Part shown: positions 5,742 to 23,534 of the stretch, in pieces
How positions within the stretch are numbered: the stretch's first letter is position 1
How the letters are laid out: every line of letters begins with the position of its first letter
Source of the DNA: Methylobacterium sp.
Lineage (GTDB): Bacteria; Pseudomonadota; Alphaproteobacteria; Rhizobiales; Beijerinckiaceae
NCBI GenBank assembly: GCA_013823325.1
Contig: PNLY01000005.1
Span: forward strand, 50,846 to 114,845
DNA: 64,000 nt
Direction: 5' to 3'
Made by a program: the position numbers and the translations under genes
The notes under the pieces: generated by a model
Database searches by the model: none
Told to the model about the DNA's origin: nothing
The model's input: the letters and a program-made list of their open reading frames with translations, nothing else

Positions 5742-5836
5742 ACGAGCGCACTCGGCGCATCTGACAGTCATGGGCCGGCGGAGCGATTGCGCCCGCCGCG
5801 CCCCTGTCACTCCTAATGTCCTGCAAGGAGGTTCGT

Positions 5837-7568: not shown

Positions 7569-7580
7569 CAGCGCTCCGGC

Positions 7581-8453
7581 TCAAGCCGCCAGGCGGCGCT
7601 GCTCGATCAGCGCCCACCAGCCGTTCAGCGTCGGCACGCGGGCGAGATCGTCGAAGCCGACGGTGACGCCGCGCTCCTTCAATTCGCCGGCGAGCACCAT
7701 GACCTGCACCGAATCGAGCCCGTAGAAGATCAGGTTCTCGTCAGGATCGAGTTCGGTCTCGTCCTCGACCAGCTCGAGCACGCGCGCCTGCAGCCATTCG
7801 CGCGTCGCCTGCGGACGCTCCGCCACACCCGCAAGACTGTCGGTCGAAACCAGCGCGCCGCAGCGCGTCGCGACATAGCGCAGCGCCATCAGATGCTCGG
7901 CCTCGGAGAAATCGGCGACGGCGTCACCGACCAGAAAGGGCTGGATATCGCTCATGAAGGCGTCGACCGCCGTCACCATGCAGCCGATATGGGCGTAGAC
8001 GCCGCCAATCACGAGCTGATCACGACCGAGTATCCGCATCCGCTCCAGCAGGTCGGAGCGCTTGAAGGCGCTGTAGCGCCATTTGGTCAGGACGATGTCC
8101 TCGGGCCCCGGCGCCAGCTCGGCGACAACCTCCTGGAGATCGGGCGCGGCCACGGTGAGGCCCGGCCCCCACATGTCGTTGAGCAGAGCGCGATCTCCAT
8201 GCGGCTGTTCATGCGGCTGGGCGGTGTAGACGACCGGCACGCCATTGGCCCGCGCCCAGGCGCGCAGGCGCACGAGATTGCCGATCAGCTGCGGCAGCAG
8301 CCGGCCCTTCGCGTCGTAGAAGCGCAGGAAATAGCGCTGCATGTCGTGGATCAGCAGGACGGCGCGCTTGGGATCCGGCCGCCATTGCGTGCGGTTGGCC
8401 GGAAAGGCGCTCGCCTGCGGCATCGGGTAGTCGGTGATCTGCGGAATGGCCAT
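7581..8453 (-). CDS. entB: EntB: isochorismatase fused to an aryl carrier domain
   Basis: This protein hydrolyses isochorismate to 2,3-dihydro-2,3-dihydroxybenzoate and carries DHB as a thioester. The first about 215 of 290 residues are the isochorismatase domain (MAIPQITDYP, RAVLLIHDMQRYF, PHEQPHGDRALLNDMWGPGL, LTKWRYSAFKRSDLLE, GVYAHIGCMVTAVDAF). The last 75 form the aryl carrier protein with FYGLDSVQVM, the phosphopantetheine serine at about 248 (E. coli Ser245). The ATG giving MAIPQ was chosen because it matches the EntB N terminus; the open frame upstream runs into entE. It lies 28 bases downstream of entE. The carrier domain looks intact, so it should serve the VibH- and Cy-type enzymes here. 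Confidence 0.95.
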   Translation of the reverse strand: MAIPQITDYPMPQASAFPANRTQWRPDPKRAVLLIHDMQRYFLRFYDAKGRLLPQLIGNLVRLRAWARANGVPVVYTAQPHEQPHGDRALLNDMWGPGLTVAAPDLQEVVAELAPGPEDIVLTKWRYSAFKRSDLLERMRILGRDQLVIGGVYAHIGCMVTAVDAFMSDIQPFLVGDAVADFSEAEHLMALRYVATRCGALVSTDSLAGVAERPQATREWLQARVLELVEDETELDPDENLIFYGLDSVQVMVLAGELKERGVTVGFDDLARVPTLNGWWALIEQRRLAA

Positions 8454-8481
8454 GTGAACTCTCGGATGGATGAGAAGGGGA

Positions 8482-10086
8482 TCAGGCGAGTTCGGCGCGC
8501 AGGCGCTTCTTGTCGATCTTGCCGACTGGAGTGAGCGGCATCGTCTCGATGAAACGGACGCGGTCGGGGAGCTTGTATTCGGCGACGCCGAGCTCCAGCA
8601 GGTGGCGCCGCAGAGCCGGTCCGCGCAGGGCCGCATCGCGGGCGACGATGAAGGCACAGCTCTTCTCGCCCAGCAGCACATCCTGCATGGCGACGAGCGC
8701 CGCATGCGTCACCTCGGGATGGCGCAGCAAGAGGTTCTCGATCTCCTCGGCCGCAACCTTCTCGCCGCCGCGATTGATCTGGTCCTTGACCCGGCCGACC
8801 ACGCGCAGATGGCCGCCGCGAACCCGCTGAACGACATCGCCGGAGTAGTAGAACCCATCGGCGTCGAAGACCTTGGCGTTGTGCTCGGGCGCGCGATAAT
8901 AGCCGCGGAAGGTGTAGGGGCCCCGCGTCGCCAGCTCGCCGCTGGCGCCCTCCGGGACCGGATCGCCGTCCTCGTCGACGATCCTGACCTCGTCATCGGG
9001 GCTGATCGGCCGCCCCTGGGTGGTGAAGACAAGCTCGTCGTCATCGTCGAAGCGGGTGTAGTTCACCAGCCCCTCGGCCATGCCGAACACCTGCTGCAGC
9101 GCGCAGCCGAACACCCCGGGCACCTGCCGCGCCAGCGCCTCGGCGAAGCTGGCGCCACCGACCTGCATCAGCCTGAGCGAGGCGAGCTTCGGCTTCTCTC
9201 TCCCCGCCGCCGCCAGCCAGAGCGCCACCGCCGTCGGCACCAGCGCGACCATGTCGACCTGGTGCTGCTCGATCAAAGCAAAGCAGGCGAGCGGCTCGGG
9301 GCTCGCCGCCAGCACGACGCAGCCGCCGGCATGGAAGACCCCAAGCGCGCCGGGCGAACTCAGCAGGAAATTGTGGCCGGCCGGCAGCGCGCAAAGGAAG
9401 CGCGTCTGCGGCGAGAGCCCACAGATCTCGGCACTCGCCCGGACACTGTAGTCGTAGTCGTTATGAGTGCGCGGGATCAGCTTCGGCGTGCCGGTGCTGC
9501 CGCCGGAGAGCTGGAAGAAGGCGACCTCGTCGGCGGGCGATGGCGACCCAGTCGGGGCCGCGCTGCTCTCCGACGCCAGCCAGCGCTCGAGATCGTTATA
9601 GGCGCGGTTGCCGCCGAGCAGCAGCACCAGCGACAGGCGCGGCGAGAGCTCCCTGAGCTCGGCGGTGAAGCTGTCGTCGGCGAAGAGTTCGTGCGCCCGG
9701 GCTCCGATCACCAGCCGCGGCTGGATCTGCTGCGCATAGGAGGTCATCTCCAGCCTGCGGTGGCTGAAGAGCGCATTGACCGGAGCGACGCCGATCTTCA
9801 GCAGCGCGAAGAAGACGATGTAGAACTCGGCGCAGTTCGGCAGCTGCACCAGTGCCGTGTCGCCCTGCCCGAGCCCTGCCTCGCTCAATCGCTGCGCCAG
9901 ATTCGAGGCTTTGCGGTCGAGCTCGGCATAGCTGATCTGCCTGTCGCCGCAGATGATCGCGATCGCGTCGGGGCGCTCCTGCCGCTGCGTGTCGAGGATG
10001 CGGGTCAGGGGCTGGTCGAGCCAGTAGCCCCGTGCGCGATAGCGCGCGGCGAACTCCGCCGGCCAGCGCTGGAAGTCGATGGTCAT
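8482..10086 (-). CDS. entE: EntE: 2,3-dihydroxybenzoate-AMP ligase
   Basis: This enzyme adenylates 2,3-dihydroxybenzoate and loads it on the EntB carrier domain. The 534-residue product (E. coli EntE is 536) opens MTIDFQRWPAEFAARYRARGYW, has the P-loop-like LSGGSTGTPKLIPRTHNDY, the aryl-acid pocket LPAGHNFLLSSPGALG, QVFGMAEGLVNYTR, the GDVV and GRVKDQINRGGEK hinge region and a C-terminal PVGKIDKKRLR with the catalytic lysine. It sits 17 bases after entC and 28 before entB in one operon. The start shown is the ATG 18 bases before the entC stop region; homology begins there. Confidence 0.95.
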   Translation of the reverse strand: MTIDFQRWPAEFAARYRARGYWLDQPLTRILDTQRQERPDAIAIICGDRQISYAELDRKASNLAQRLSEAGLGQGDTALVQLPNCAEFYIVFFALLKIGVAPVNALFSHRRLEMTSYAQQIQPRLVIGARAHELFADDSFTAELRELSPRLSLVLLLGGNRAYNDLERWLASESSAAPTGSPSPADEVAFFQLSGGSTGTPKLIPRTHNDYDYSVRASAEICGLSPQTRFLCALPAGHNFLLSSPGALGVFHAGGCVVLAASPEPLACFALIEQHQVDMVALVPTAVALWLAAAGREKPKLASLRLMQVGGASFAEALARQVPGVFGCALQQVFGMAEGLVNYTRFDDDDELVFTTQGRPISPDDEVRIVDEDGDPVPEGASGELATRGPYTFRGYYRAPEHNAKVFDADGFYYSGDVVQRVRGGHLRVVGRVKDQINRGGEKVAAEEIENLLLRHPEVTHAALVAMQDVLLGEKSCAFIVARDAALRGPALRRHLLELGVAEYKLPDRVRFIETMPLTPVGKIDKKRLRAELA

Positions 10087-10103
10087 GCCATGATCCTCGG
10101 ATG

Positions 10104-11264
10104 TCAGGCGGCGAGGCCGCAGGCGCTGAGCATGGTGCCGAGCTTGGCTTGCACCTCCTCCCATTCGGAGGCGGGATTGGAGGCCTCGACGATGCCCGCG
10201 CCGGCGAAGAGCCGCAGAGTGTCGCGCCGGGCGATGCCACAGCGGATGGTGATCGCCCATTCGCCATTGCCCTGCGCATCGCACCAGCCGACCAGGCCGG
10301 TGAACAGCCCGCGCTCGAAGGGCTCGACATAGCGGATCAGCTTATGGGCGCTCTCAGTCGGGAAGCCGCAGACCGCCGGCGTCGGATGGATGATGCAAGC
10401 GAGCTGGAGCGCGGTCATCGCCGGGTCGTTCAAGACGCCCTCGATCGGTGTCGAGAGATGCCACATCGCCGCGGTGTTCATCAGCGAGGGACCATCGGGA
10501 ATGTGGAGCTCGCCGCAGAGCGGCGCCAGGATCGAGCGGATGTTCTCGATCACCAGCCGGTGCTCGTACTGGTCCTTCTGCGAGCGCTCCAATTGCTCGG
10601 CCGCGGCACGATCGGCCTGCGGATCGGGCTGCCGCTTGGCCGAGCCGGCGAGCGGATTCGAGACGATCCGGCCGCCCTCCTTGCGGATCAGCAGCTCAGG
10701 GCTGACCCCGACGAGCTCGCCCTCGTCGGGCAAGGGAATTCTGAACAGATAGCCCTGGCTGTTCTGGGCGCGCAGGCTGGCCAGCAGCCGGCCGACATCC
10801 ATGCTCCCGGCAAAGCGCAGCTCGCGCACCACTGACAGCACCGCCTTGCGGACATCGCTATGGCGGAAATTGACGATGGCGTGCTCGACCGCCTTCTTGA
10901 AGCCGTCCTCGTCGGGAAGGCTGCGCTGGTCGAGCAGGTCGGGAACGCCCGGAGGCTCGCCTGCCGCCTCGGCCGGAGCCTGCTCGCGCCACTCATAGCC
11001 CGCCGGGACATAGAGGCAGGAGGGTTCGCGCACATCGAAGGGAATGGCGCCGATCAGGATCGGATTGGCCTGCCCTGCCCGCCTGGCCCGCTCGAAGGCT
11101 GCCTCAACCGCCGCGTGCAGACCCTGTCCGCGATCCTGCCCACCACGGGCTGGCACGGAGATCCACTCATGGATTCCCGATGACAACAATTCTCTGCCAT
11201 TTGATGCGAACAAGGCACCAAATTTGAAATTGATATTGTGTTTCAAGGCCAAACTTTCCAGCAT
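10104..11264 (-). CDS. entC: EntC: isochorismate synthase
   Basis: This enzyme isomerizes chorismate to isochorismate, the first committed step to DHB. The 386-residue protein has the chorismate-binding fold: SVPARGGQ, ILIGAIPFD, KAVLSVVRELRF, YLFRIPLP, SPELLIRKEGGRIVSNPLAGSAKR, EHRLVIENIRSILAPLC, HLSTPIEGV, LIHPTPAVCGFP-type (IIHPTPAVCGFPTESA) and FTGLVGWCD, all diagnostic of EntC/DhbC. It is first in the entCEBD operon and divergent from the free-standing cyclization-domain gene. The first 20 codons and the region upstream are noticeably AT-richer than the rest. No strong ribosome-binding site is visible upstream of the ATG. Confidence 0.94.
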   Translation of the reverse strand: MLESLALKHNINFKFGALFASNGRELLSSGIHEWISVPARGGQDRGQGLHAAVEAAFERARRAGQANPILIGAIPFDVREPSCLYVPAGYEWREQAPAEAAGEPPGVPDLLDQRSLPDEDGFKKAVEHAIVNFRHSDVRKAVLSVVRELRFAGSMDVGRLLASLRAQNSQGYLFRIPLPDEGELVGVSPELLIRKEGGRIVSNPLAGSAKRQPDPQADRAAAEQLERSQKDQYEHRLVIENIRSILAPLCGELHIPDGPSLMNTAAMWHLSTPIEGVLNDPAMTALQLACIIHPTPAVCGFPTESAHKLIRYVEPFERGLFTGLVGWCDAQGNGEWAITIRCGIARRDTLRLFAGAGIVEASNPASEWEEVQAKLGTMLSACGLAA

Positions 11265-11351
11265 TGAAGTTACTCTACTTCTAAAGAGGCTTCATTCAGC
11301 GATGCTGATCGCAGATGTTGACAGCTTCTTGCTTTCGTAAGAAGCAATGTC

Positions 11352-11380
11352 AATCGAAATCGATTTGCAGTAATCGATTA
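11352..11380. promoter_or_regulatory. Tandem AATCGATT palindromes between entC and the NRPS genes
   Basis: In the AT-rich 137-base divergent gap, AAATCGATTT (11357-11366) and TAATCGATTA (11371-11380) are perfect decamer palindromes 14 bases apart, with a further AATCGA half-site at 11352. They lie just upstream of the plus-strand NRPS start and could control both divergent operons. The motif does not fit the classical Fur, Irr or RirA consensus as I know them, so the regulator is unknown. Confidence 0.35.
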
Positions 11381-11401: not shown

Positions 11402-12997
11402 ATGAACATACGACAATTGACGCCGATGCAGGCGGCTTATTGGTTTGGCCGCCAATCACATACCTCCCTCGGAGGCGTGACGGCACATCTTTATGGCGAG
11501 TTCGACGGACGCGACCTCGAGCCCGAGCGGCTGCGCGATGCCGTTCGCAGGCTCTGCCGACTGCATCCGATGCTGCGGCTGCGGATCGATGCCGAAGGCT
11601 GCCAGCACCTCGATCCGGCAGCCGATCCATTGCCGGTCGAGGTCGAGGACATGCGGGAGCTCCCGGCGGACGCGCTGGAAGCACGCCTCCTCGCCAAGCG
11701 CCGGAGCTGGAGCCATCGCCGGCTCGATCTAGGCCGCGGCGAGGCGGCGGCGTTCGGCCTCAGCCTGCTGCCCGACAGCGCCTGCCGGCTGCATGTCGAC
11801 ACCGACATGATCGCGGTCGACCCGAACAGCTTCCGGCTCGTGATCGAGGATCTTGCCCGGCTCTACGATCATCCGGACCGACCGCAAGCGCCCGCCTCCC
11901 ACGGCTTCTTCGACTGGCTCGACCGGGCGGGCGCGGGAGCCGAAGGCGCAAAACGGCGCGAGCGCGACAGGGTTTGGTGGCGTGCCCGTCTCGCTGACAT
12001 CCCCCCGGCACCCGCGCTGCCCGCAACACTTCATGCTCCGGCAGAGCCGACAAGCGAGCGCCTGGCCGCCCGGCTCTCGTCCGATGAGCGCCGCGCGCTG
12101 GAAAGACGTGCTCGCGATCTTCGGGTGACGCCGTCCGTGCTGGCACTCGGCCTCTTCGCAGACGTGCTCGGCCGGGCGACGCGACAGGCCCGTTTCCGCC
12201 TGAACGTGCCGAGTTTCTGGCGTGCGCCGCTCGTTCCCGATGTCGAGCGGATCGTCGGCGAATTCTCGAACGTGCTGATCCTCGGCGTCGACCTCGCGGC
12301 CGCAGCGACATTGGCCGAGCTGTGCCACGACATCGGCCGCCAGATGGTCGAGGTCATCGCCCATGACGCCTATCCCGGCGTCAGCGTGATGCGCGACCTG
12401 TCGCGGCTGCACGGCTCCGTCCAGACCGCGCCGGTCGTCTTCACCGCCGGCCTCGGGCTCTCCGGCGGCGAGCTCTTCAACGAGACCACCACGCGCGTCT
12501 TCGGTCCGATGAACTGGGTGATCTCGCAAGGGCCGCAGGTGGCGATCGATGCCCAGGTCGCGGCCTGCGACGGCGGCATCCTGGTGAACTGGGACATCCG
12601 GCTCGACGCTCTGCCGGAAGCCTGGGCCCGCGAAACCTTCGCGGCCTATGTCGCGCTGCTGCGCGCGGCGCGGCCAGAGGCGCTCGACGCCGCACCGGCC
12701 GCGGCGAAGGCAGGGCCGGGCCGCAAGACCACCAACCCGACCGAAGACATGCTGGTCAGCCTGCTGGGGCGCCTGTCGCCGGGCGAAGCGGTGCACGGTT
12801 GTAGCGCGATAACCGCGGCCGCCAAGGCCGAAATCACCCGCTTCCTCGACCGCTACTGCCCCATTGGCGCGCCATCGCGTTCGGATTTCGACGAGGCGAC
12901 GACGCCTCGCAGCCTCGCCGATCTCGTCCGCGCCCGCTCGGGCGGCGCCTCCGACGAGATCGCGCGCATCTTCCTGGAGACGATCGATGCGGGATGA
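11402..12997 (+). CDS. Free-standing NRPS cyclization (Cy) domain protein, VibF Cy1-like
   Basis: The 531-residue product is a lone heterocyclization domain. It opens with the Cy core LTPMQAAYWFGRQ and has the Cy signature D135-x4-D140-x2-S143 (DMIAVDPNS) that replaces the condensation motif HHxxxDG. Later Cy segments include VPSFWRAP, GEFSNVLILGVDL, YPGVSVMRDLSR, PVVFTAGLGL and ISQGPQVAIDAQV. About 80 C-terminal residues (from NPTEDML to the end) resemble a decayed carrier domain but show no phosphopantetheine serine motif. The stop overlaps the next gene by 11 bases. In VibF, tandem Cy domains split amide formation and ring closure; this protein, with the intact motif, is the better candidate for cyclodehydration to the oxazoline. 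No adenylation domain is attached. Confidence 0.85.
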   Translation: MNIRQLTPMQAAYWFGRQSHTSLGGVTAHLYGEFDGRDLEPERLRDAVRRLCRLHPMLRLRIDAEGCQHLDPAADPLPVEVEDMRELPADALEARLLAKRRSWSHRRLDLGRGEAAAFGLSLLPDSACRLHVDTDMIAVDPNSFRLVIEDLARLYDHPDRPQAPASHGFFDWLDRAGAGAEGAKRRERDRVWWRARLADIPPAPALPATLHAPAEPTSERLAARLSSDERRALERRARDLRVTPSVLALGLFADVLGRATRQARFRLNVPSFWRAPLVPDVERIVGEFSNVLILGVDLAAAATLAELCHDIGRQMVEVIAHDAYPGVSVMRDLSRLHGSVQTAPVVFTAGLGLSGGELFNETTTRVFGPMNWVISQGPQVAIDAQVAACDGGILVNWDIRLDALPEAWARETFAAYVALLRAARPEALDAAPAAAKAGPGRKTTNPTEDMLVSLLGRLSPGEAVHGCSAITAAAKAEITRFLDRYCPIGAPSRSDFDEATTPRSLADLVRARSGGASDEIARIFLETIDAG

Positions 12998-15900
12998 TTT
13001 TTCCGATGCCGCGCCGGGCGGAGCCGTCGGGCGGGACGAAGTACCGCTGACCGACCTGCAGCAGGCCTATCTGCTCGGGCGCGAGCGGCATCTGCCGCTG
13101 GGCGGCGTCGCCATGCAGGAATTCCGCGAATATCGCGGTGCGATCGATGTCGCGGCGCTGCCGCCGCGCCTCCTTGCGATGGTCGCGCGGCATCCGGCCT
13201 TGCGCACGCATATCGACGCACAGCGCCGGGTTTCGTGGGTCTCATCCGAGCCGGCCGTCAACTATGACGAGATCGACCTGCGCGGCCTGCGGCAGGCAGA
13301 AGCGTTGGCCTGGATCGACGGGCAGCGCGAGGACTACGCCCATCGCCTATTCGACCTCACACGCTCGCCCTGGAACGTGACGGCGTTCCGCCTGCCGGAC
13401 CCGGAAGCGGATGATCCCGACCGGGCGACCTGCGTGCTGTTCGCCCGCTTCGATGCCATGATCCTCGATGGCCGCGCCATCGCTTCGCTGCTCGTCGAGC
13501 TGCTGGGCGGTGAAACACCACGCCTGGAGGCTGCGGCCCTGCCACCGCCGACCGACGAGGCGAAGCGGCGTAAGGACGCCGCCTATTGGGCTCACAAGCT
13601 CCAGCCGGTCGAAGGCCCGCCGCAACTGCCTTGGACCAAGCCGCTGGAGGCGATTCCCGCCTCGCGCTACGAGCGCGAGAGCCTGACTATCTCGCGCGAA
13701 CGTTTCTCAGCGCTCTGTCGCCTCGCCGCCAGGGAGCGCCTGTTCAAGAACACGGCAGTGACGGCCGTCGTCCTCGAAACCTTGTCACATTGGCTGAACG
13801 AAGGCGCACTCTGCGTCGGTATCCCCGTCGCGCCCGCCGCCTCGTCCGAACTTGCAAACCGGTCGAGCTTCATCGCCGTCAACTGGGATGCCCGGCAAGG
13901 CGACTTCCGCGAGCGCGCGCAATCCTTGCAGGGCGATGTGCTGGAAGGGCTGGAGCATCTTTCGCAAGCCGGCGTGCAGATCAGCCGGCTCCTGATGAAC
14001 GCCCAACCGGGCGGGCCGGCCCTGCCCGTCGTCGTGACCAACGGCCTCGGCTGGCCGAAGCTGGCGAAGGATGCCGGGATCCGGCACCATGCCGGCCTGA
14101 CCCAGACGCCGCAGGTCGCCGTCGATATCCGCTTCCGCGACGATGACGAGGGCAATCTCGTCGTCGACATCGACTACGCCCGCGAGGCGATCGACCGCGG
14201 AATCATCAGCGACATCCTCGCCGCGCTCGACCGGCAAGTCGCCACGATCTGCGAGCGCGGCGCCTTCGAGATCGTGCGGGGCGAGATGCTCGACCTCGGC
14301 CACTATCGGCTCAACGGCTCCGAGGATGAGTTCGCCTGCAGCCGCTTCCTGCAACGCATCGCCGACAACCTTTTCGCGGGAGATAGGGACAAGATCGCCC
14401 TGATCTCGGGCGCCCGCCGAATCTCGTATGGCGAACTCGGCACGAATGTCGGCAAGGCGGTGTCGGCGCTGCGCGAGCGCGGCGTCGGCAAGGGCAATGT
14501 CGTCGCGGTCTGCCTGCCGCGCGGGCCCGAGCACACTGCGATCACGCTCGCCTGTGCGCTTTCCGGCGCGATCTGGGTGCCGATCGACGCGGCCTCGCCG
14601 CCTGAGCGGCTGGACTATCTCCTCGCCAATTGCCGGCCGGCCCTGGTGGTGTCGACGGCTTCGGTTTCGGGGCATGAGGCGGCAACGCCCGAGGCCCTGT
14701 TGAGCGGCGAGCCACCGGCCGATCCGCTGGCGCTGCTGCCGGCGCTGGACGCGCTCTCGGCAAGCAATGAGCCCGCCTATTACCTCTACACCTCCGGCAC
14801 TACCGGCCGGCCCAAATGCGTGGTGCTCTCGAACCGGGCGACCTCGAACGTCATCGGCCGCACGCTGGAGAACTGGCAGGCGACGGAAAGCGACGTCTTC
14901 ATCTCGGTGACGCCGCTGCATCACGACATGTCGGTCTTCGACGTGTTCGGCTGCCTGACGGCGGCCGCGACGCTGGTCCAGCCGGCGCCCGGCGAGGAGA
15001 AGGACGCGATCGCCTGGAACCGGCTCGTCGCCGACCACAAGGTCACGCTCTGGTGCTCGGTGCCGGCGATCCTCGAGATGCTGCTGTCCTGCCGGCAAGG
15101 CGACGAACTGCGCTCGCTCCGGCTGATCGCCCAGGGCGGCGACTACATCAAGCCGGCGGTGATCGCCGAACTGCGCCGTCTCGATCCGGCGCTGCGGCTG
15201 GTTTCGCTCGGCGGGCCGACCGAGACGACGATCTGGAGCATCTGGCACGAGATCGGCCCCGAGGACACCGGACAGGTCCCGTATGGCCGGCCGCTGCCGG
15301 GCAACCGCTATTTCATCCTGAACGAGCGCGGCGAGCATTGCCCGTCCGGAGCCGTCGGGCGCATCCACACCGCGGGCGTCAATGTCGCGCTCGGCTATCT
15401 CCAGGACGGCGTGCTCGGCCAGAGCGACTTCGTCACCGTCGCCGATGAAGCCGGCGAGCCGGTGCGCGCCTTCCGCACCGGCGATCGTGGCCGCTATCGC
15501 CATGACGGCACCATCCTCTTCGCCAGCCGGGTCGACGGCTATGTCAAGGTCCGCGGCGTGCGCGTCTCCTTGCCTGATATCGAGGCGGAGCTCGGCGCCC
15601 ATCCCGATATCCGCCAATTGCTGGTGGTCGATTGCGGCGTCGAGCAGCGCGGCGAGGCTGAGATCGGCGTCATCTATGTGCCGGCGCAGGCGGGCAAGCC
15701 GAGCGCCTTCGACTTGCGCGCCCATGCAAGGCGTGTGCTGCCGGAGTCGCATGTCCCGACCCGCTTCGTCGAGGTCGAGACATTGCCGCTTTCGGCGAAC
15801 GGCAAGCCCGATCGCCGCAAGGCTCGCGAATTGCTGGCCGCTGCCGCGGAGCGCCGCGAACCGGCGGCAAGGGCTGCACCGCCAGCCAATCCGCGCAACA

Positions 15901-16121
15901 GCAGGATTCTCGACCTTTACCTCGCCGTGCTCGGCCAGCCAGCCTCGCCGGAGATCGACGATACCACCGATTTCGTCCGCCTCGGCCTGCTGCCCTCCCA
16001 CCTCAAATCCGTGGCGAGCCGAATCCGCGACGAGCTCGGCACTGATCTGACGCCGCATCAACTGCTGCGCTGCCGCAATGCCGGGCAAGTCGCGCTGCTG
16101 CTCCGCGACCAGGAGCGGTGA
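12987..16121 (+). CDS. NRPS: Cy-like domain, adenylation domain, degenerate carrier domain (VibF Cy2-A-like)
   Basis: The 1044-residue protein has a Cy-like domain (residues 18-430; VPLTDLQQAYLLGRE), an adenylation domain (about 450-950; YTSGTTGRPK at 601-610, GGPTETTIW at 742-750, TGDRGRY, NGKPDRR with Lys940) and a short carrier-like tail (970-1040). The Cy signature is altered to D156-x4-D161-x2-A164. The carrier motif reads LGLLPSHL: an ungapped comparison puts Pro1003 at the phosphopantetheine-serine position with a serine one residue later, so this carrier may be inactive. Specificity residues read by eye are D-M-F-C-A-G-L-I-W, neither the usual Thr nor Cys code; Thr (or Ser) activation is inferred from VibF. 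The ATG lies inside the preceding gene; the longer upstream frame is antisense-like arginine-rich sequence. Confidence 0.88.
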   Translation: MRDDFSDAAPGGAVGRDEVPLTDLQQAYLLGRERHLPLGGVAMQEFREYRGAIDVAALPPRLLAMVARHPALRTHIDAQRRVSWVSSEPAVNYDEIDLRGLRQAEALAWIDGQREDYAHRLFDLTRSPWNVTAFRLPDPEADDPDRATCVLFARFDAMILDGRAIASLLVELLGGETPRLEAAALPPPTDEAKRRKDAAYWAHKLQPVEGPPQLPWTKPLEAIPASRYERESLTISRERFSALCRLAARERLFKNTAVTAVVLETLSHWLNEGALCVGIPVAPAASSELANRSSFIAVNWDARQGDFRERAQSLQGDVLEGLEHLSQAGVQISRLLMNAQPGGPALPVVVTNGLGWPKLAKDAGIRHHAGLTQTPQVAVDIRFRDDDEGNLVVDIDYAREAIDRGIISDILAALDRQVATICERGAFEIVRGEMLDLGHYRLNGSEDEFACSRFLQRIADNLFAGDRDKIALISGARRISYGELGTNVGKAVSALRERGVGKGNVVAVCLPRGPEHTAITLACALSGAIWVPIDAASPPERLDYLLANCRPALVVSTASVSGHEAATPEALLSGEPPADPLALLPALDALSASNEPAYYLYTSGTTGRPKCVVLSNRATSNVIGRTLENWQATESDVFISVTPLHHDMSVFDVFGCLTAAATLVQPAPGEEKDAIAWNRLVADHKVTLWCSVPAILEMLLSCRQGDELRSLRLIAQGGDYIKPAVIAELRRLDPALRLVSLGGPTETTIWSIWHEIGPEDTGQVPYGRPLPGNRYFILNERGEHCPSGAVGRIHTAGVNVALGYLQDGVLGQSDFVTVADEAGEPVRAFRTGDRGRYRHDGTILFASRVDGYVKVRGVRVSLPDIEAELGAHPDIRQLLVVDCGVEQRGEAEIGVIYVPAQAGKPSAFDLRAHARRVLPESHVPTRFVEVETLPLSANGKPDRRKARELLAAAAERREPAARAAPPANPRNSRILDLYLAVLGQPASPEIDDTTDFVRLGLLPSHLKSVASRIRDELGTDLTPHQLLRCRNAGQVALLLRDQER

Positions 16122-16163
16122 GGCAGCTCGCCGCCGCCCGCATAATCCAAATTGGAGATTCCC

Positions 16164-17531
16164 ATGTCGCAGGCCGATTCGCGCCGCGCTTTGATGCCGC
16201 TCACTTTGCCGCAGCTCGATTTCTGGGAGGAATTCACCTTCCATCCCGACGAGCCGATCGCGACCGTGGCGCATTGCCTCGACATCGACGGCGTGACCAA
16301 CGAGCCGATATTGGTCGCGGCCATCATCCAGACCATTACCGAATCCGACGCGCTCTGCGTGCGCTTCCATGTCGAAGCGGACCGCGAGATGCCGCTTCAG
16401 AGCTGCGATCCACAGTTGCGGCCTGTCCTTCAGCAGATCGACCTGAGGGGTGTCACGAATCCCCTGCAGGAAGCAAGAGAGCGGATGGAAGCGGATATCG
16501 CGGCGCCGCTCGACCTGCGCGGTGACGGCCTTGCGGCAACCTGGCTGCTGCGCGTCGGTGAGCGGCGCTATCTCTGGTATATCCGCGCCCACCATATCGT
16601 CCTCGACGGCTATGGCTTCACGCTGATCGAGCAGCGCTGCGGCCAGCTCTATTCGCAGCGCCTCGTAGGGAGCGACGCCGGTCCAGCCTTCCACCCCTTC
16701 GCCAGCTTCATCGCGGAAGAGAAGGCCTATCGGGCCAGCCGCCGCCACGAGAGCGACCGCGCCTATTGGCGAAGCGAGTTCGCCGCGCACGCGCCGCTGC
16801 CGATCCTGCATCGAGGCGACAAGCAAGCCGGCGAAGCACCGCACGAGGTCCATGGCACGCTGTCGGCTGATGTGAGCGCCGGATTGCGCGGGCTTTCGCA
16901 GAAGACGGATATCGGCTGGCCCGATTTGCTGGTGCTGCTCTCCGGGCTCCATCTCTCGCGCCGCCTGCCGCGGCAACGGATCGAGGGGCGCGAGGTCCTG
17001 GCCTTCTGGCTGCCGTTCATGAGCCGCTGGGGCAGCCTCGCCGCCCACACGCCCGCCATGGTCGTCAACATCCTGCCCTTCCATCTGTCTTTGGGACCGC
17101 AGGAGAGCCTCGAAGACGTCCTGCGCGGGAACGCCGCAACGCTGAGGAGCCAGCGCCGCCATGGCCGCTACCGGATCGAGCAGATCGCCATGGACAACGG
17201 CATGCCCGCGGGCAGCCGCTACTTCTTCTCGCCATTGATCAATGTGCTGCCGTTCAGCGCGCCAAGCTTCCATGGCTGCACGGTGACGCGGGAGATCATG
17301 GGCAGCGGCCAGGGCGAGGGCATCGACCTCACCTTCCGCGGCGAAGACGATGGCAGCGGATTGAGCTTCGCGATGTCGGCCGACCCGGCGATGTTCGCGA
17401 GGGAACCGTTCGAGCGGCATGGCGAGGCATTGCCGGCCTTCCTGGCGCGGGCACTCGTCCCGGAGGCGCTGGCTCGACCGATTGCGGAGCTCCTGGCGGA
17501 GCAGCGAGAGGATGCGCTCGGCTTGGTGTGA
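16164..17531 (+). CDS. vibH: VibH-like free-standing condensation enzyme (DHB-polyamine amide synthase)
   Basis: In V. cholerae, VibH joins DHB from the VibB carrier to norspermidine without any adenylation domain. The 455-residue product keeps the active motif RAHHIVLDGYG (H143, H144, D148) and long VibH-like stretches: IGWPDLLVLLSGLHL, FWLPFMSRWGS, MVVNILPFHL, RHGRYRIEQIAMDNG, YFFSPLINVLPF and GEGIDLTFRG. The match to VibH as I recall it is much closer than to ordinary condensation domains. The ATG is set by GGAG six bases upstream; a TTG 12 bases earlier is less likely. It follows the Cy-A protein with a 42-base gap. It predicts a polyamine (spermidine or norspermidine) backbone, as in agrobactin or vibriobactin. 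Confidence 0.92.
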   Translation: MSQADSRRALMPLTLPQLDFWEEFTFHPDEPIATVAHCLDIDGVTNEPILVAAIIQTITESDALCVRFHVEADREMPLQSCDPQLRPVLQQIDLRGVTNPLQEARERMEADIAAPLDLRGDGLAATWLLRVGERRYLWYIRAHHIVLDGYGFTLIEQRCGQLYSQRLVGSDAGPAFHPFASFIAEEKAYRASRRHESDRAYWRSEFAAHAPLPILHRGDKQAGEAPHEVHGTLSADVSAGLRGLSQKTDIGWPDLLVLLSGLHLSRRLPRQRIEGREVLAFWLPFMSRWGSLAAHTPAMVVNILPFHLSLGPQESLEDVLRGNAATLRSQRRHGRYRIEQIAMDNGMPAGSRYFFSPLINVLPFSAPSFHGCTVTREIMGSGQGEGIDLTFRGEDDGSGLSFAMSADPAMFAREPFERHGEALPAFLARALVPEALARPIAELLAEQREDALGLV

Positions 17532-17701
17532 GCCAGCGCGCAACGGTTTTTCCAATAGGCGTGCGCGAGACGGAGGCGCGGGGAACCCCTATCCCGGATG
17601 GGAGAGGGGCAGGGGTGAGGGACCGCCGCTGATTATTAAAGTGAGACGGCAGCGCAGCGCCTTCTATGGATAGGGCAGGTTCTCATCCCTGCCCTTCTCC
17701 A

Positions 17702-17764
17702 CCGATCCCGGGTCTACCCGAGATCGGCACTCAAAGTGTCGAAGTCGGATAAATCCGACTTCGA
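17702..17764. repeat. Adjacent perfect and near-perfect palindromes in a 299-base convergent gap
   Basis: Between the vibH-like gene and the opposing C-T-C gene no coding frame is convincing. The gap holds CCGATC-C-CGGGT-CT-ACCCG-A-GATCGG (17702-17728) and a perfect 12-base-arm palindrome TCGAAGTCGGAT-AA-ATCCGACTTCGA (17739-17764). Both are enclosed by longer inverted CCCTTCTCC / GGGAGAAGGG segments (near 17691 and 17768). Upstream is a purine-rich GGGAGAGGGGCAGGGGTGAGGG-type segment. There is no T-run, so this looks more like a dispersed REP-like element than a simple terminator, though it could end transcription from both sides. Confidence 0.6.
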
Positions 17765-17830
17765 TGCGGGAGAAGGGTTCCCCGCGCTCTTCATCAGTTG
17801 CTTGGGTAGCTTGGTGAGCAGCGGTGGCGC

Positions 17831-20803
17831 TCACCCCTCCAGTAGATGGGCACCCAGCTCGGCCAGCGTCACCTGCGCCCCGCCAGCCCGGCCCATCAGC
17901 GCGAAGACCGCGCTGGTCGTCGTCGTGATCTTCTCGACCTCCTGCGGCCCGTAATGCTCGGAGCGATAGCTCATCAGCACGCGGATCGAGCGCTCACCGG
18001 CAAGATCGGCCTCCTCCATCACCTCGAAATGCAGGCCGAGCATGGATTCGTGCCGCTCGGGGTCGACCTGCCGAAACGCGATGCTGCGCCCGTCCGGCAG
18101 CGCCAGCTCGCCGTTCAGCTTGTTCTTGGCGTGGATCTGGATGAAGACCTCGAAGAGATGGTCGCGGCCCGGCGTCATGCCGAGCGCCTCCTCGACCAAG
18201 TCGATCGGGATCTCGCTCGCTGGCAGCGAGTCGTTGACCAGGTTCCTGACCTGGCCGACCAGCCCGCCAAGGCTCATCGTCTCGTCGAAGCGGATGCGAT
18301 GGGCGACGACGGTGGTGAAGTAGCCGACCGTGTCGAAGAATGCAGCGTCGCTGCGGCCGGAGGCCGAGGTGCCGACCACCAGCTCCGGCAGAGAGCCGAG
18401 CTGGCGCAGCGAAGCGGCGATACCGGCATAGACCACGTTGAACAGCGAAGCGCTGCTCTTTTTGGCGAGGGCGTAGAGCCCTTCCGTCGCCTTCCGGTCG
18501 AGCTTGAACTCGACCCAGCCGCCTGCGGCGGACGCCTCTTCCCGGGCAGGCTCAGCCCGCTCCTGACGCTGGAGGATCGGCTGGGGCTGTGGCGCCCCGC
18601 GCAGCATATCCGTCCAGTAGCCGAGATGCGCCTGGTCGACGCCAACAGCATCCTGAAGCCGGGCGAATTCATGGAAAGGCGCCGGTGCATCCGACCAGAC
18701 AGGCATGCCGCCGGCCGCGCGCATGCGGTAGCAATAGGCGATCTCGTCCATCATCAGGTTGACCGACCACTCGTCAAGCACGACGTGATGGAACAGGAAG
18801 GAGAGCACCTGCCGGCCCGTCGCCGGATCGATCAGGAAGCGCAGGCGGAACGGCAGTTCGCTGGCGAGGTCGAAATGGTGCAGCGCCTCGTCGCGGCGAT
18901 CGACGCCCACGCTCTCGGCGCTGGTCCAGAACCATTTGTAGTGCGGCAGCTCGGCCGCCGGCACGACCTGCTGGACGATCCTCTCGCCCTCGCGCCGGAA
19001 CAGGCTGCGCAGGCCTGAATGACGTTCGAGCACATCGGTGAAGGCGCGCCCGTACAGGGCTTCGTCGACCGGTTCGAGGAAATCGAGCGCGAAGGGCAGG
19101 TTGAAGATCTCGTTGAAGCCGAAGGCGGCATAAGCCTTCCAGAGCGAAGCCTGCGCCAGCGAGAGCGGCGCGCTCGGCGCCTCTTCGATCGGCGCGGCAC
19201 GCGACGTTTCCGTGACCGCGTCGCCGGTACGACGCGCCTTGAGCGCGAGCGCCGCGGCGCTCGGATAGCTGAACAGGTCGTTGAAATGCAGCTCGATGCC
19301 ATGCTGGCTGAGCAGACGCCCGATGATGCGCGTCGCGATCAACGAGTGGCCGCCATGGTCGAAGAAGTCATCGTCCGGCCCCAGTTCCGGCGCGTTGAGG
19401 GCGGCGCGGAACTCGGCGAGGATGAGGGCGATCACCGCATCGGCCGCCGGCGCCTCGGCTGCGATCGTCCTCCCCTGCAGCTTGTATGCAGCAACAGCTG
19501 GCGAGACACCCGGCAAAGCGCCCTCGCCTTCCTTCAACCAGGCCAGGAAGCGCTCCAGGAGAACAGGGCCGATCCGCGGCGAGAGTCCCTGCCCCGTGAC
19601 AAGCTCGATCGCGATGCCGCCCTGCTTGCCGCGTCCGACAGCGAACGCCAGATCGGGGCGGGTCTCCAGCGTCGGCAGCGGCAGCCGTTCGATCGATACG
19701 CCCGGCATCTGCAAGCCGTCCGCGGGATCGTCGAGCCAATTGACGAACAGGATCGGACGCTCAGCCCTGCCTGCGCAGCGCGTCGGCGCAGTCGCCGTCC
19801 GGCCGAGCCGATCCTGGATCGCGCGAACGATCGCTTCTACCGGCGCCTGTCCGTCCGCCGTCAGGAGGACAGTTTCTCCACCCGTGACGGATGAGGGGGG
19901 ATCGCCGATCTGCGCAGCCGGCCCGCTCGGGACCAGCAGGTCGATCTCCCGCTTGCCGGACAGAGCGGACAGGTAGCGGGCGAACAGCGCGGCGAGATAG
20001 GCGAGAACCGCCTGATCCGATGCATCCGGCGCGAGGCCGTTCAGGAGCTCCAGCCCGATCGTGACGCCGTATCGACCGGCCAGTGCCCGTTCGGACTGCG
20101 GGGCACGGAGATTGCCGAAATCGACGATGTCAGGACCCGTGGCGTTTTCGCTTCGACACATCCAGCCCGGCAGCATCGCCGAGGCCTCGCCCGCTGCCAG
20201 CAGTGGTGTCCCGGGAGCCCGCGTCACGGAGCGAGAGGCCGACGGGATCGGCTCGCCCGCATAGGCCCTCCCAAGTGCGAACAGGAGTTCCGCGGCGGGG
20301 TGCGCCGCCTCGAGGATACGATGCAGGACCAGCGCGAGAACCGCCTCCTGCGGGCAGCTGATCACGAGCGCCTCGAAAGGCGGCTCGCCATCGCTGTCCC
20401 AACCTGCACCCTGCCGGTCGAGGATCGCCGCGATCGCCTGTTCCGGCGTCTCGGCCCGGATCATGCTGACGATGCGCGCCTCTTCCCCAGCGAAGCGCTT
20501 GTGCAGCTCGCCATCCTCGCCGAAGCGGAAGCGGGCATTCAGATCGGGGCGAGCGCGCACGACATCACGCACCGCGCCGACGAGGCGCGCCAGATCAGGC
20601 TCTCCGGTCAGCCGGCAAGCCACGACATGCTTCAGCACCGCCGCGGGAACCTGCTGCTGCGCCAGCCAGACGTGTTCTTCGTATGCGCTTGGAGCCGGCG
20701 CCGCCGACTCGTTTGGCGTCGCCTTCCCAGAGAACATATGCAGGGCGGCCTCGAGGCGCCGCTGCTCGGCGCGCGTCAGCACATGGTCGAAGTCGGCAGC
20801 CAT
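17831..20803 (-). CDS. NRPS: degenerate condensation domain, carrier domain, condensation domain (VibF C1-T-C2-like)
   Basis: The 990-residue protein has three parts. Residues 38-440 form a condensation-like fold whose HHxxxDG site has decayed to LHRILEA (160-166). Residues 455-525 form a carrier domain with a perfect FFDHGGHSL (Ser487). Residues 545-985 form a condensation domain with HHVVLDEWS (672-680), FNVVYAGIAASLRQ, VVGTSASGRSD and DTVGYFTTVVAHRI. VibF ends in the same C1-T-C2 order and its C1 was reported as not needed for catalysis, so this looks like the detached C-terminal half of a VibF-type enzyme. C2 would transfer the DHB-oxazoline acyl group to the DHB-polyamine made by the VibH-like enzyme. 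It is on the minus strand, 53 bases downstream of the viuB-like gene. Confidence 0.88.
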   Translation of the reverse strand: MAADFDHVLTRAEQRRLEAALHMFSGKATPNESAAPAPSAYEEHVWLAQQQVPAAVLKHVVACRLTGEPDLARLVGAVRDVVRARPDLNARFRFGEDGELHKRFAGEEARIVSMIRAETPEQAIAAILDRQGAGWDSDGEPPFEALVISCPQEAVLALVLHRILEAAHPAAELLFALGRAYAGEPIPSASRSVTRAPGTPLLAAGEASAMLPGWMCRSENATGPDIVDFGNLRAPQSERALAGRYGVTIGLELLNGLAPDASDQAVLAYLAALFARYLSALSGKREIDLLVPSGPAAQIGDPPSSVTGGETVLLTADGQAPVEAIVRAIQDRLGRTATAPTRCAGRAERPILFVNWLDDPADGLQMPGVSIERLPLPTLETRPDLAFAVGRGKQGGIAIELVTGQGLSPRIGPVLLERFLAWLKEGEGALPGVSPAVAAYKLQGRTIAAEAPAADAVIALILAEFRAALNAPELGPDDDFFDHGGHSLIATRIIGRLLSQHGIELHFNDLFSYPSAAALALKARRTGDAVTETSRAAPIEEAPSAPLSLAQASLWKAYAAFGFNEIFNLPFALDFLEPVDEALYGRAFTDVLERHSGLRSLFRREGERIVQQVVPAAELPHYKWFWTSAESVGVDRRDEALHHFDLASELPFRLRFLIDPATGRQVLSFLFHHVVLDEWSVNLMMDEIAYCYRMRAAGGMPVWSDAPAPFHEFARLQDAVGVDQAHLGYWTDMLRGAPQPQPILQRQERAEPAREEASAAGGWVEFKLDRKATEGLYALAKKSSASLFNVVYAGIAASLRQLGSLPELVVGTSASGRSDAAFFDTVGYFTTVVAHRIRFDETMSLGGLVGQVRNLVNDSLPASEIPIDLVEEALGMTPGRDHLFEVFIQIHAKNKLNGELALPDGRSIAFRQVDPERHESMLGLHFEVMEEADLAGERSIRVLMSYRSEHYGPQEVEKITTTTSAVFALMGRAGGAQVTLAELGAHLLEG

Positions 20804-20856: not shown

Positions 20857-21690
20857 TCACTCGTCGAAATCGTCGTGCACGGCGACGGCGCCGCGGCGCC
20901 AGTAGCCATGGGCGCGGACCCATTTGCGATTGGCGCCGCGCTCGTCGACGAGGACGCTGCGCAACTGCTTGGCCGCGCTGGATTCACAGGCGAGCCAGGC
21001 GAAGTAGTCGCCATCGGGGAAAGCCAGAACCGGCAAGGCCGCGAGCAGCGCCGCACCGGGTTGCGCCCCGGCGGCACGATGAGCCCAGACCACCTCGACG
21101 CCGGGCGGGCGCGGCAGCAGCAGCTCCTCTTCCGCTCCACCGACCTCGACCAAAGCGAGTGCCCGGCTGCCCTGCGGCAGCTCTTCCAGGCGCCGTGCCA
21201 GAGCAGGCAGCCCGGTCTCGTCGGCGACCAGCAGATGCCAGTCGAAATCGAAGGGAACGATGAAGGAGCCGCGCGGGCCGGCGATCCAGGCGGAATCGCC
21301 CGGCTTGGCCTGCGCCGCCCAGCGGCTGGCCGGGCCGTCATGCAGCAGGGCGAAGTCGATATCGAGCTCGCCCGCCTGCGGATCATGCCGCCGCGGCGTG
21401 AAGTCGCGCGCCAGTGGCCGCGGACCGCTCTCGGGGAAGGCCAGACCATCCGGGCCGACCACGGGCAGGACCGGGCTTGTCTCGCCGGGCGCTGCGAAGA
21501 ACATCTTCACATGGTCGTCGAAGCCGAGGCTGGTGAAGCCTTCGAGCTCCGGCCCGCCCAGCGTCACCCGGCGCATCGACGGGCTCAGATCGGTCACGCG
21601 TAGGACGTCGAGGCGCCGCAACGCCACCTTGTGGCGCTGGCGCTTCGGCAGGCGTCCGTCCGGCACGCCTGTTTCAGTGGCGCTGGTCAT
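20857..21690 (-). CDS. viuB: Siderophore-interacting protein / ferric-siderophore reductase (ViuB family)
   Basis: This is a cytoplasmic FAD-dependent reductase that releases iron from imported ferric siderophore. The 277-residue protein has the SIP family blocks: LSPSMRRVTLGGPEL, DDHVKMFF, RDFTPRRHDPQAGELDIDFALH-like (RDFTPRRHDP and ELDIDFALL), GPASRWAAQAKPGDSAWIAGPRGSF for FAD, then WHLLVADETGLPAL, and the C-terminal GDYFAWLACESSAAKQLR and KWVRAHGYWRRG with the conserved lysine. The ATG giving MTSATETG was chosen because the preceding 37 codons are in the hemP gap and show no homology. It is upstream of and co-directional with the C-T-C NRPS gene, suggesting a hemP-viuB-NRPS transcript. Confidence 0.92.
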   Translation of the reverse strand: MTSATETGVPDGRLPKRQRHKVALRRLDVLRVTDLSPSMRRVTLGGPELEGFTSLGFDDHVKMFFAAPGETSPVLPVVGPDGLAFPESGPRPLARDFTPRRHDPQAGELDIDFALLHDGPASRWAAQAKPGDSAWIAGPRGSFIVPFDFDWHLLVADETGLPALARRLEELPQGSRALALVEVGGAEEELLLPRPPGVEVVWAHRAAGAQPGAALLAALPVLAFPDGDYFAWLACESSAAKQLRSVLVDERGANRKWVRAHGYWRRGAVAVHDDFDE

Positions 21691-21797
21691 GGTCTGGATT
21701 CCTTGCGGTTGGCGGCCCGTTCGCGACATGACCGCATCGAGCCTTTGCGGCCGCGCGAGGCGGCCCTGTGATCTGCGGCGAGGCCCCGAGGGCGGCG

Positions 21798-22007
21798 TCA
21801 CTTGGTCAGGATCAGCTTTCCCTGCCGCGTGATCCTGAGACGATAGAGCTCACCATGGTGCTCGATCCCGATCTCCGTCTCGCCCTTGAAGACTGCCGCG
21901 CTGGCGACCGTCCTGACCGGCCGCATCGCCGCTGGACGAGTCAGGCGGCAGGCCCGATCGAGGCATCCGGGGCCGGTCGAGACCGACAGGAGGGGCTGGC
22001 TGTTCAT
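21798..22007 (-). CDS. hemP: Hemin uptake protein HemP
   Basis: The 69-residue product ends YRLRITRQGKLILTK, the diagnostic HemP C terminus, preceded by the EIGIEHHGEL strand. HemP (HmuP) is a small regulator-like protein tied to haem uptake in many proteobacteria. No haem receptor or HmuTUV genes are in the window, so here it stands with siderophore genes and may have been recruited to iron control of this transcript. It is followed after 107 bases by the viuB-like gene on the same strand. The upstream 80 bases are AT-rich and likely hold the promoter. Confidence 0.85.
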   Translation of the reverse strand: MNSQPLLSVSTGPGCLDRACRLTRPAAMRPVRTVASAAVFKGETEIGIEHHGELYRLRITRQGKLILTK

Positions 22008-22184: not shown

Positions 22185-23393
22185 CTACGCCGTCGCACGG
22201 CGCCCGGCCGTGAGGGCCAGGATCGCGACGAGCAAGGGCGCGAAGGACAGCATCAGCACCATGTTCCAGCCGAAGGCGGAGAGCAGGCCTCCGGAGAGGA
22301 AGGAGCCGATCGCCATCGTGCCGAACACCGCGAAATCGTTGAAGGACTGCACGCGGGCCTTCTCTTCCGGGCGATGGCATTCCAGGACCATGGCCGAGGC
22401 GCCGACGAAGCCGAAGTTCCAGCCGAGGCCGAGCAGGATCAGCGTTGCCCAGAAATGCGTGACGTCGATGCCGAACAGCCCGACCGCCGACGCGGCCCCG
22501 GTCAGGATGAGGCCGGCAGCGACGACCTTCGCCGCGCCGAAGCGCGTGATCAGCCGCCCGGTCCAGAAGCTCGGCCCATACATGGCGACGACGTGCCATT
22601 GCAGCCCGAGATTGGCCGATTCCTGCGAGAGCCCGCACAGCTTCATCGCCAGCGGCGCCGCCGTCATCAGGAAGTTCATCAAGAGGTAGGAGACGACCCC
22701 GCAGATCACCGCGAGGACGAATCGGGGCTGGCGCACGATCACGCCGAGCGGCCGCCCGCCCGCCTGTTCCGCGGCAGTCGGCATCGGCAGCTTGACGCCG
22801 AGCAGGATGAGGGCGGACAGCGCCGCGACCGCCGCCTGGCCGACATAGGTGGCCGCGAAGAGATAGGGCGGCCAGAGGTTCATCGTATGCGTCACCAGTT
22901 GCGCGCCGATGACCCCCGCGAAGACGCCGCCCGCCATCACCGCGGACAGGGCACGCGGGCGCCTTGCCGGCGCGGCGCAATCGGTCGCGGCGAAGCGGAA
23001 GGACAGGACGACCGCGGCGTAGATGCCGGCACAGAACGTGGCGAAGCAGAACAGCCAGAACGAGGCGACGAGCATGGCGAGGCTCGCCAGCGCGCCGGCG
23101 AGGACACCGCTGCCGGTGCCCAGCATGAACACCATGCCGCGGCCATGGCGCTGCGCGATCGCGCCGGCCGGCAGCGTGCAGAGCGCCATGCCGACGACGA
23201 AGATCGAGACCGGCATCGTCGCGAGGGCCTTGCTGGGCGCCAGCATGTCGCCGACGACCGCGCCCGTGGCGAAGACGACGGTGGCGTTGGCGCCGGCGAG
23301 CGCCTGGCAGACCGCCAGACGCAGCACATTGCTGCGCTCCCGCCGAAGCGAAATCGCCGCCTCGGCGTCCGGAAGAATGGATGTCGTGGTCAT
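22185..23393 (-). CDS. Major facilitator superfamily transporter
   Basis: The 402-residue protein has about twelve hydrophobic segments with short loops (for example VVGDMLAPSKALATMPVSIFVVGMALCTLPAG, AIAQRHGRG after TM2, and LILLGLGWNFGFVGASAMVLE). The RHGRG loop matches the MFS motif A position. It probably exports a small molecule with proton antiport. Standing beside the siderophore cluster, it could be the siderophore exporter (EntS/AlcS role), but nothing in the sequence fixes the substrate, and the adjacent AraC regulator suggests a separate two-gene unit. The ATG giving MTTTSILPD is preferred; the 34 upstream codons look like promoter sequence. Confidence 0.82.
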   Translation of the reverse strand: MTTTSILPDAEAAISLRRERSNVLRLAVCQALAGANATVVFATGAVVGDMLAPSKALATMPVSIFVVGMALCTLPAGAIAQRHGRGMVFMLGTGSGVLAGALASLAMLVASFWLFCFATFCAGIYAAVVLSFRFAATDCAAPARRPRALSAVMAGGVFAGVIGAQLVTHTMNLWPPYLFAATYVGQAAVAALSALILLGVKLPMPTAAEQAGGRPLGVIVRQPRFVLAVICGVVSYLLMNFLMTAAPLAMKLCGLSQESANLGLQWHVVAMYGPSFWTGRLITRFGAAKVVAAGLILTGAASAVGLFGIDVTHFWATLILLGLGWNFGFVGASAMVLECHRPEEKARVQSFNDFAVFGTMAIGSFLSGGLLSAFGWNMVLMLSFAPLLVAILALTAGRRATA

Positions 23394-23534
23394 GCGGCGA
23401 CCTGAGTTCTCCAGTGGGCCCGGCGACGCAGCCCGCTTCCCGCTTTTGCGAGCGACGAAGCGGTTGCAGCAAGCGCATCGGCCCTCGCCAGCCATGTCTT
23501 CCGCCTATCAGGAATCCCACTGACCTACTTTCGA

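Follow-up and report, generated by a model that had tools for sequence, protein, structure and literature searches.

VibF of Vibrio cholerae is a single protein with the domain order Cy1-Cy2-A-C1-T-C2. In the stretch of DNA analysed here (the window, 64,000 nucleotides of contig PNLY01000005.1 from Methylobacterium sp.), the parts of such a synthetase are encoded by separate genes on both strands. The question arises whether a VibF-like gene has recently been broken at this locus or whether the split is an established layout, and how the A and Cy domains reach a carrier. A preliminary description had listed three proteins, encoded at 11402-12997 and 12987-16121 on the plus strand and at 17831-20803 on the minus strand. 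All three are genuine, with open and uninterrupted reading frames, but a fourth NRPS gene had been overlooked. It is located at 16164-17531 on the plus strand, has a putative ATG start behind GGAGA, and codes for a free-standing condensation domain of the VibH type (amide synthase).

The first plus-strand protein is a stand-alone Cy1 (approximately 11411-12664, motif DMIAVDPNS) with a C-terminal Ser-less carrier-like domain, Tx1 (approximately 12689-12994). The second consists of Cy2 (approximately 13044-14306, DAMILDGRA, lacking the last Ser of DxxxxDxxS), A (approximately 14355-15836) and a Ser-less carrier-like domain, T* (approximately 15894-16118, GLLPSHLK). The minus-strand protein is composed of a degenerate condensation domain, C1* (approximately 19508-20683, LHRILEA), the carrier T (approximately 19211-19459, GGHSL) and C2 (approximately 17861-19171, HHVVLDE). 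The plus-strand genes for Cy1, Cy2-A-T* and VibH and the minus-strand gene for C1*-T-C2 are arranged convergently. The convergent intergenic region of 299 bases (17532-17830) has a repeat-like, GC-rich appearance by eye.

Pfam recognizes Condensation (98 bits) in the Cy1 protein, AMP-binding (254 bits) and, below the gathering threshold of 30.6, Condensation (25 bits) in the Cy2-A-T* protein, and PP-binding (46 bits) together with one Condensation match (135 bits), which is C2, in the C1*-T-C2 protein. C1* is not recognized by Pfam. Its AlphaFold2 model (mean pLDDT 79), however, matches solved condensation domains with a Foldseek E-value of 4.5e-20, and so the preliminary description was right in placing a degenerate C1 ahead of the carrier. 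Three positions of HHxxxDG are lost in LHRILEA, namely the first His, Asp and Gly. As the second His is retained, here and in most relatives, we only infer that C1* is catalytically dead, by analogy to VibF (PMC5577590). HHxxxDE, the form found in C2 of the window, is the rule in the family (60 of 66). For the protein encoded at 16164-17531, the best solved relative is VibH (1l5a, 234 bits; runner-up 137), and its HHIVLDG fits the HHI..DG motif described for amide synthases (PMC7962358). The comparison of A-domain specificity covered two shared motifs only.

From 93 loci and the window, 292 C and Cy domains were extracted, of which 179 from 54 sources, picked for readability, were placed in a FastTree domain tree. 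Pure clades were obtained for Cy1 (43 of 43), Cy2 (41 of 41), VibH (26 of 26) and C1 (25 of 25), with support values of 0.985-1.0. The clade labelled C2 (44 of 44, support 0.41) includes six ordinary C domains from other NRPSs; once they are removed, C2 of the family forms a clade of 38 of 38 with support 1.0. Two actinobacterial Cy domains labelled Cy1 grouped with Cy1. Serratia domains occur in all clades, those of Pseudomonas and Paracoccus in some only. Since the domain labels come from profiles seeded with homologues from the window, the tree tests clustering and not naming. Among the homologues covered, which do not include VibF itself, the domains cluster position by position, and a grouping with unrelated NRPS families was not seen. 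Nor was an intact VibF-like gene encountered in a closely related genome. To sample gammaproteobacteria, genomes of an order, a genus, a family and a class around an Aeromonas genome or anguibactin-type genomes were searched. No VibF-like single ORF occurred among the matches listed, but this absence means little given the limited match lists and the E-value cut-off: one search was limited to E up to 1e-90, and those of the genus and the family yielded no genomes beyond the ones already drawn. One of the searches showed a frame of 2430 residues with only an 18-bit match.

The domain that follows A had been described as a weak carrier. It is indeed carrier-like (Pfam PP-binding, 23.5 bits against a gathering threshold of 20.8), but in alignments with homologues and in the profile comparison with T a Pro occupies the column of the attachment Ser. 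When the T* and T profiles are compared by hhalign (63% probability, E 7e-5), the two motifs align without a gap. In 42 non-redundant T* sequences the attachment column holds Pro (37), Leu (4) or Phe (1), a His follows two residues past it in 40 of 42, and a Cys is found further on in 41 of 42. In Serratia, T* reads GLKLPHIK. A role of T* as a working carrier was rejected, as it has no Ser. Without this residue it should not carry an amino acid, so that A must load the carrier of the minus-strand protein, where GGHSL (found in 68 of 75 T hits) is the sole intact carrier motif across the three proteins. As anticipated in the preliminary description, A and both Cy domains must therefore act in trans on a carrier that resides on another polypeptide, encoded on the opposite strand.

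The four proteins have homologues with 84-90% identity in Bosea lupini (locus L044), the nearest named relative, so the block is no assembly artefact. The same split was found in Boseaceae BT-24-1, Labrenzia, Agrobacterium vitis, Roseibium, Serratia and Photorhabdus. From 388 relatives the best 80 were taken as named loci, and all 80 could be mapped. When two plasmid records and the window are added, both Cy1 and Cy2 are present in 77 rows; among these, which derive from the best 80 of the 388 relatives, the two domains are split in 20 (11 alphaproteobacterial, 9 gammaproteobacterial) and fused in 57. Seven of the nine named split loci from Alphaproteobacteria have the C1*-T-C2 gene directly downstream in convergent orientation; of the remaining two, L047 ends at a contig edge, and L107 has none in the stretch examined. 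The convergent four-gene block is also present in genomes G052, G424 and G178, the first two being the genomes of loci L044 and L046. In Roseibium aggregatum RF14 the C1*-T-C2 gene is encoded more than 100 kb away on the same plasmid. A full-length relative of protein P0004 occurs in 1 of 148 other genomes drawn within the family of the window. On the Paracoccus sp. MA plasmid (L169) the gene is interrupted inside Cy2, and in L192 (genome G1562) the relative is spread over several frames or interrupted. A search of Rhodobacterales for further single-chain forms (4 of 292 genomes, E up to 1e-80) returned no new clear one.

All split Cy1 proteins (20 of 20) carry the C-terminal domain Tx1 of about 100 residues, which is found in none of the 57 fused proteins, where merely 18-58 residues separate Cy1 and Cy2. 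A profile of the alphaproteobacterial Tx1 sequences detects all nine gammaproteobacterial ones (E 1e-19 to 1.5e-6; best other match 0.59). In the reverse search, 10 of 11 alphaproteobacterial sequences are detected (E 1e-13 to 5e-4), and the remaining one scores 0.075, close to the best non-member (0.12). Because the profiles match reciprocally, Tx1 is most likely a single homologous domain. Its AlphaFold2 model (pLDDT 80) has four main helices. In a Foldseek search, carrier domains take the first five places (best probability 0.82, best E 0.66, none significant), and hits six and seven are larger proteins that may contain a carrier domain. Comparison by hhalign gives weak probabilities of 6.2% against T and 3.5% against T*; fifteen slices of other domains reach at most 1.8% against T.

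A tree of split and fused forms needs 6 changes, 4 of them forced by well supported branches, and the fused forms of an E. coli plasmid, Citrobacter and Serratia H1w nest inside a mostly split clade; the tree was computed by a quick method with midpoint root, carries a long-branch warning and is poorly resolved in the relevant part. Given this nesting and the presence of Tx1 in all split proteins, these nested fused proteins appear to have arisen by fusion with loss of Tx1, and would hence be derived. The split form may have been transferred horizontally.

How the split arose and what the locus produces can both be explained in more than one way. A recent breakage of a single VibF-like gene in a decaying locus would agree with the VibF parts lying in order and with the single-chain form of Paracoccus denitrificans. 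However, the conservation of the split from Bosea lupini to Photorhabdus led us to reject it, and with Tx1 confined to the split proteins and some fused forms nested among split ones, it is doubtful whether the pieces found here arose by cutting of a longer gene. The proteins are also under purifying selection. Between the window and B. lupini, dN/dS is 0.20 for Cy1, 0.59 for Tx1, 0.16 for Cy2, 0.16 for A, 0.34 for T*, 0.18 for VibH, 0.29 for C1*, 0.15 for T and 0.13 for C2, and thus 0.13-0.59 over all domains, degenerate ones included. We see next to no chance for a recent breakage; the split is an old layout of the family.

As to the product, we are confident that the locus represents a polyamine-catechol-oxazoline siderophore line of the vibriobactin, agrobactin and serratiochelin kind, spread over separate proteins in a trans layout. 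It is improbable that the product carries a different terminal amine, for instance N-hydroxyhistamine, as in the acinetobactin and pseudomonine type. Pseudomonas loci with Cy-Cy-A-T* and C1-T-C2, and Acinetobacter loci with Cy1-Cy2-T*, have no VibH-type gene in the stretch examined, which would suit such an ending. By contrast, a VibH-type gene follows the Cy2-A gene in the window and in all nine named alphaproteobacterial split loci (in Agrobacterium vitis locus L049 it adjoins the split synthetase), and the VibH clade of the domain tree is pure.

For the polyamine-ending line, the neighbouring genes supply further parts: genes for aryl-acid synthesis, a phosphopantetheinyl transferase, a receptor and a reductase-type protein adjoin the NRPS block. 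Divergent from the Cy1 gene, an isochorismate synthase of the EntC type (10104-11264, minus strand; Chorismate_bind) is encoded and is conserved in relatives. It is followed on the same strand by an EntE-type aryl-acid AMP ligase (8482-10284), whose ORF overlaps the adjoining gene so that the true start is probably later, and by an EntB-type isochorismatase with a carrier domain (7581-8705), for which the homologue of 290 aa in B. lupini indicates a start probably near 8453. This carrier, apart from the NRPS proteins, is presumably the aryl carrier. A 4'-phosphopantetheinyl transferase (6897-7568, minus strand) and a siderophore-receptor-like TonB-dependent receptor (3645-5741, plus strand; 217 bits against a TIGR01783 cut-off of 223.5) are encoded beyond. 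An O-methyltransferase gene of the Methyltransf_2 family (5816-6874, plus strand) lies between these two and is also present in the siderophore clusters of Bosea and Roseibium (51-56% identical). On the other side, a siderophore-interacting protein (20857-21801, minus strand) is encoded immediately upstream of the C1*-T-C2 gene. With a gap of 53 bases on the same strand, the two genes probably share one transcript. An MFS transporter and possible siderophore exporter is encoded at 22185-23495 (minus strand).

An inverted repeat (TTGACA.GCTTCTT...AAGAAGC..TGTCAA, 11318-11353) lies in the promoter region from which the EntC-type and Cy1 genes diverge. The repeat is identical in Bosea lupini and in Boseaceae BT-24-1 (L045) and is a possible candidate for a regulator site. 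A second NRPS locus, with open frames of 2658 and 753 aa, is found on contig C31 of genome G000 (approximately 28000-35700) and probably has counterparts elsewhere in the genus.

By analogy to the chemistry of characterised relatives (PMC5577590, PMC5635690, PMC12005286, PMC11308372), which backs such a pathway and from which substrates, product, polyamine, aryl acid and order of steps are taken, the line would operate as follows. EntC/B/E-type enzymes would synthesize the aryl acid and attach it to the carrier on the isochorismatase protein, and the VibH-type protein would couple one aryl group to the free polyamine. The A domain would activate an amino acid, probably threonine, and load it in trans onto GGHSL of the C1*-T-C2 protein. 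Cy2 would attach a second aryl group, Cy1 as a separate protein would close the oxazoline ring, and C2 would pass the aryl-oxazoline to the aryl-polyamine. The identity of the aryl acid is uncertain, since a gene for 2,3-dihydro-DHB dehydrogenase (dhbA/entA) is absent from the cluster: among matches above 100 bits, no counterpart was found at 6897-8705 or in Bosea lupini L044. It occupies the corresponding place in Boseaceae BT-24-1, Roseibium, A. vitis and others. In the source genome (95% complete) the best of 74 hits reaches 171 bits against a cut-off of 300.

The preliminary description knew of no case with this split, but the split layout and trans-loading are already known in kind. For serratiochelin of Serratia plymuthica, three genes homologous to vibF (SchF1, SchF2, SchF3) are described beside the vibH homologue schH (PMC5635690, PMC7962358), and the window agrees with this type in having separate Cy, Cy-A and C-T-C proteins and a free-standing VibH homologue. 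The Serratia loci that we compared (L108-L110, from S. marcescens and S. ureilytica, which we equate with the sch genes by content and order) likewise code for Cy1-Tx1, Cy2-A-T*, VibH and, on the opposite strand, C1-T-C2, but differ in that the minus strand encodes VibH and that C1-T-C2 lies upstream of Cy1. Vibriobactin synthesis by VibF and VibH, as described in PMC5577590, shares with the window two Cy, one A and two C domains (one of them inactive), one carrier and a separate VibH. VibF, likened here by description and not by sequence, is one polypeptide, whereas the window has three ORFs on two strands.

Loading onto the carrier of another protein has been published for anguibactin (AngR to AngM; PMC5577590), pseudomonine (PmsG; PMC11308372) and acinetobactin (BasA to BasB; PMC12005286). 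In the anguibactin system (AngR/AngN/AngM), the Cy and PCP domains of AngR are described as apparently non-functional, and the system differs from the window by both Cy domains being on one protein and by the use of cysteine and N-hydroxyhistamine (PMC5577590). AngM-like proteins (C1N-T-C2) and AngN-like proteins, which end in T*, resemble parts of the window. For acinetobactin (BasA/BasB/BasD) and pseudomonine (PmsD/PmsG), the amino acid likewise goes to a carrier that sits on a second protein, but the amine is N-hydroxyhistamine (PMC12005286, PMC11308372), and the Acinetobacter and Pseudomonas loci have both Cy domains on one protein.

With trans-loading known in kind, we took a census of the domain ends in 94 loci and the window, which comprises 174 polypeptides after score limits, with Tx1 matches below 70 residues ignored; a number of the rows are closely related, and the counts are partly circular, since the sequences used to build the T*, Tx1 and C1 profiles belong to this set. 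Independent of these profiles are the Pfam PP-binding match of T* in the window, the hhalign comparison of T* and T, and the test of Tx1 from alpha- to gammaproteobacteria. Cy or A without an intact carrier is found in 101 polypeptides (50 Cy1-Cy2-A-T*, 20 Cy1-Tx1, 20 Cy2-A-T*, 7 Cy1-Cy2-T*, 3 A-T* and 1 Cy1-Cy2), and carrier plus C2 apart from A in 64. Outside both counts are the single chain of P. denitrificans, two pieces from Paracoccus sp. MA, and six actinobacterial Cy1-A-T proteins of another family. A Ser-less carrier-like domain ends 100 of the 101 trans polypeptides, the exception being Advenella (L070) with Cy1-Cy2 and no T*. That the trans-acting parts nearly always end in a dead carrier-like domain may be the new point of this analysis.

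All 64 separate carrier polypeptides start with C1 or its N-lobe: 25 are C1-T-C2, 35 show an N-lobe match only, one has a broken C1 match, and three at locus edges are C1-T-T-C2. C1-T-T-C2 proteins, with two tandem carriers, also occur in L196-L198 (from G568, G543 and G828). In 30 of the 35 N-lobe-only proteins fewer than 340 residues precede C2, so that the second half of C1 is really short; in three, residues are present but unmatched. Neither degenerate domain is found in the single-chain Cy1-Cy2-A-T-C2 protein of Paracoccus denitrificans or in the A-T-C2 piece of Paracoccus sp. MA. The anguibactin-like loci, L190 and L192 were examined later and do not enter the census counts. In the anguibactin-like clusters AngN-like proteins end in T* (GLRPSHLK, GLRPTHLK), and AngM-like proteins start with the N-lobe of C1. 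One AngR-like protein, whose A domain is more distant, has a terminal carrier in which GGDE replaces GGxS. The T* of L190 (Rhodobacterales) lacks the HLK part, and L192 is too interrupted to judge.

We tentatively propose that carrier and condensation domains which are catalytically dead now serve for docking throughout the family, and that both disappear where A and carrier share one chain. Polypeptides that reach the shared carrier from outside would end in the Ser-less T* (GL[RL]PxHLK) or in Tx1, the latter being the docking end of the stand-alone Cy1. The carrier polypeptide would open with a degenerate condensation domain, at times the N-lobe alone, which receives the trans parts. T*, Tx1 and C1* would then be retained because they recruit A, Cy1 and Cy2 to the protein that bears the carrier. 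The near-universal retention in trans, the absence in one cis lineage, the polar conservation and the retained N-lobe speak for docking; the single cis lineage, the partly circular profiles, the Advenella exception and the weak structural evidence for Tx1 speak against it. Searches of the open-licence literature, one of them restricted to rare phrases, listed no docking role for such carriers, which does not prove that none has been described.

We give a nearly even chance to the alternative in which T*, Tx1 and C1* are remnants or have a purely structural role, with T* steadying A and C1* only dimerising the carrier protein, and no docking at all. The C1 domain of VibF is reported to be catalytically inactive and to improve dimer binding (PMC5577590), and this reading would also fit the lack of T* in Advenella, the restriction of the double absence to one lineage (Paracoccus denitrificans and Paracoccus sp. 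MA), and Tx1 being the least constrained domain. A mirror-tree test over 55 loci did not find a specific link between T* and C1* either (partial correlation 0.18, compared to 0.12-0.43 in the other four pairs). However, a mere fold-keeper does not obviously need the polar signature of T*, with its conserved His and Cys. T* is retained on 7 of 8 Cy1-Cy2 proteins that have no A domain, and three A-T* proteins retain it without any Cy. The N-lobe of C1*, too, persists where the C-lobe has little room.

In summary, the Bosea cluster extends the split, serratiochelin-like layout to a further genus, and the comparison of layouts points to an old split form, with some fused forms being derived. A parallel to the proposed docking may be seen in the X domain of glycopeptide synthetases, a recruiting platform with condensation fold (PMC11546977). 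If the docking proposal is true, it would provide a new docking part for assembly-line engineering and a rule for locating trans-acting partners in genomes, and it would explain why domains that were earlier called non-functional, the AngR carrier and the VibF C1 (PMC5577590), have been retained in this family.
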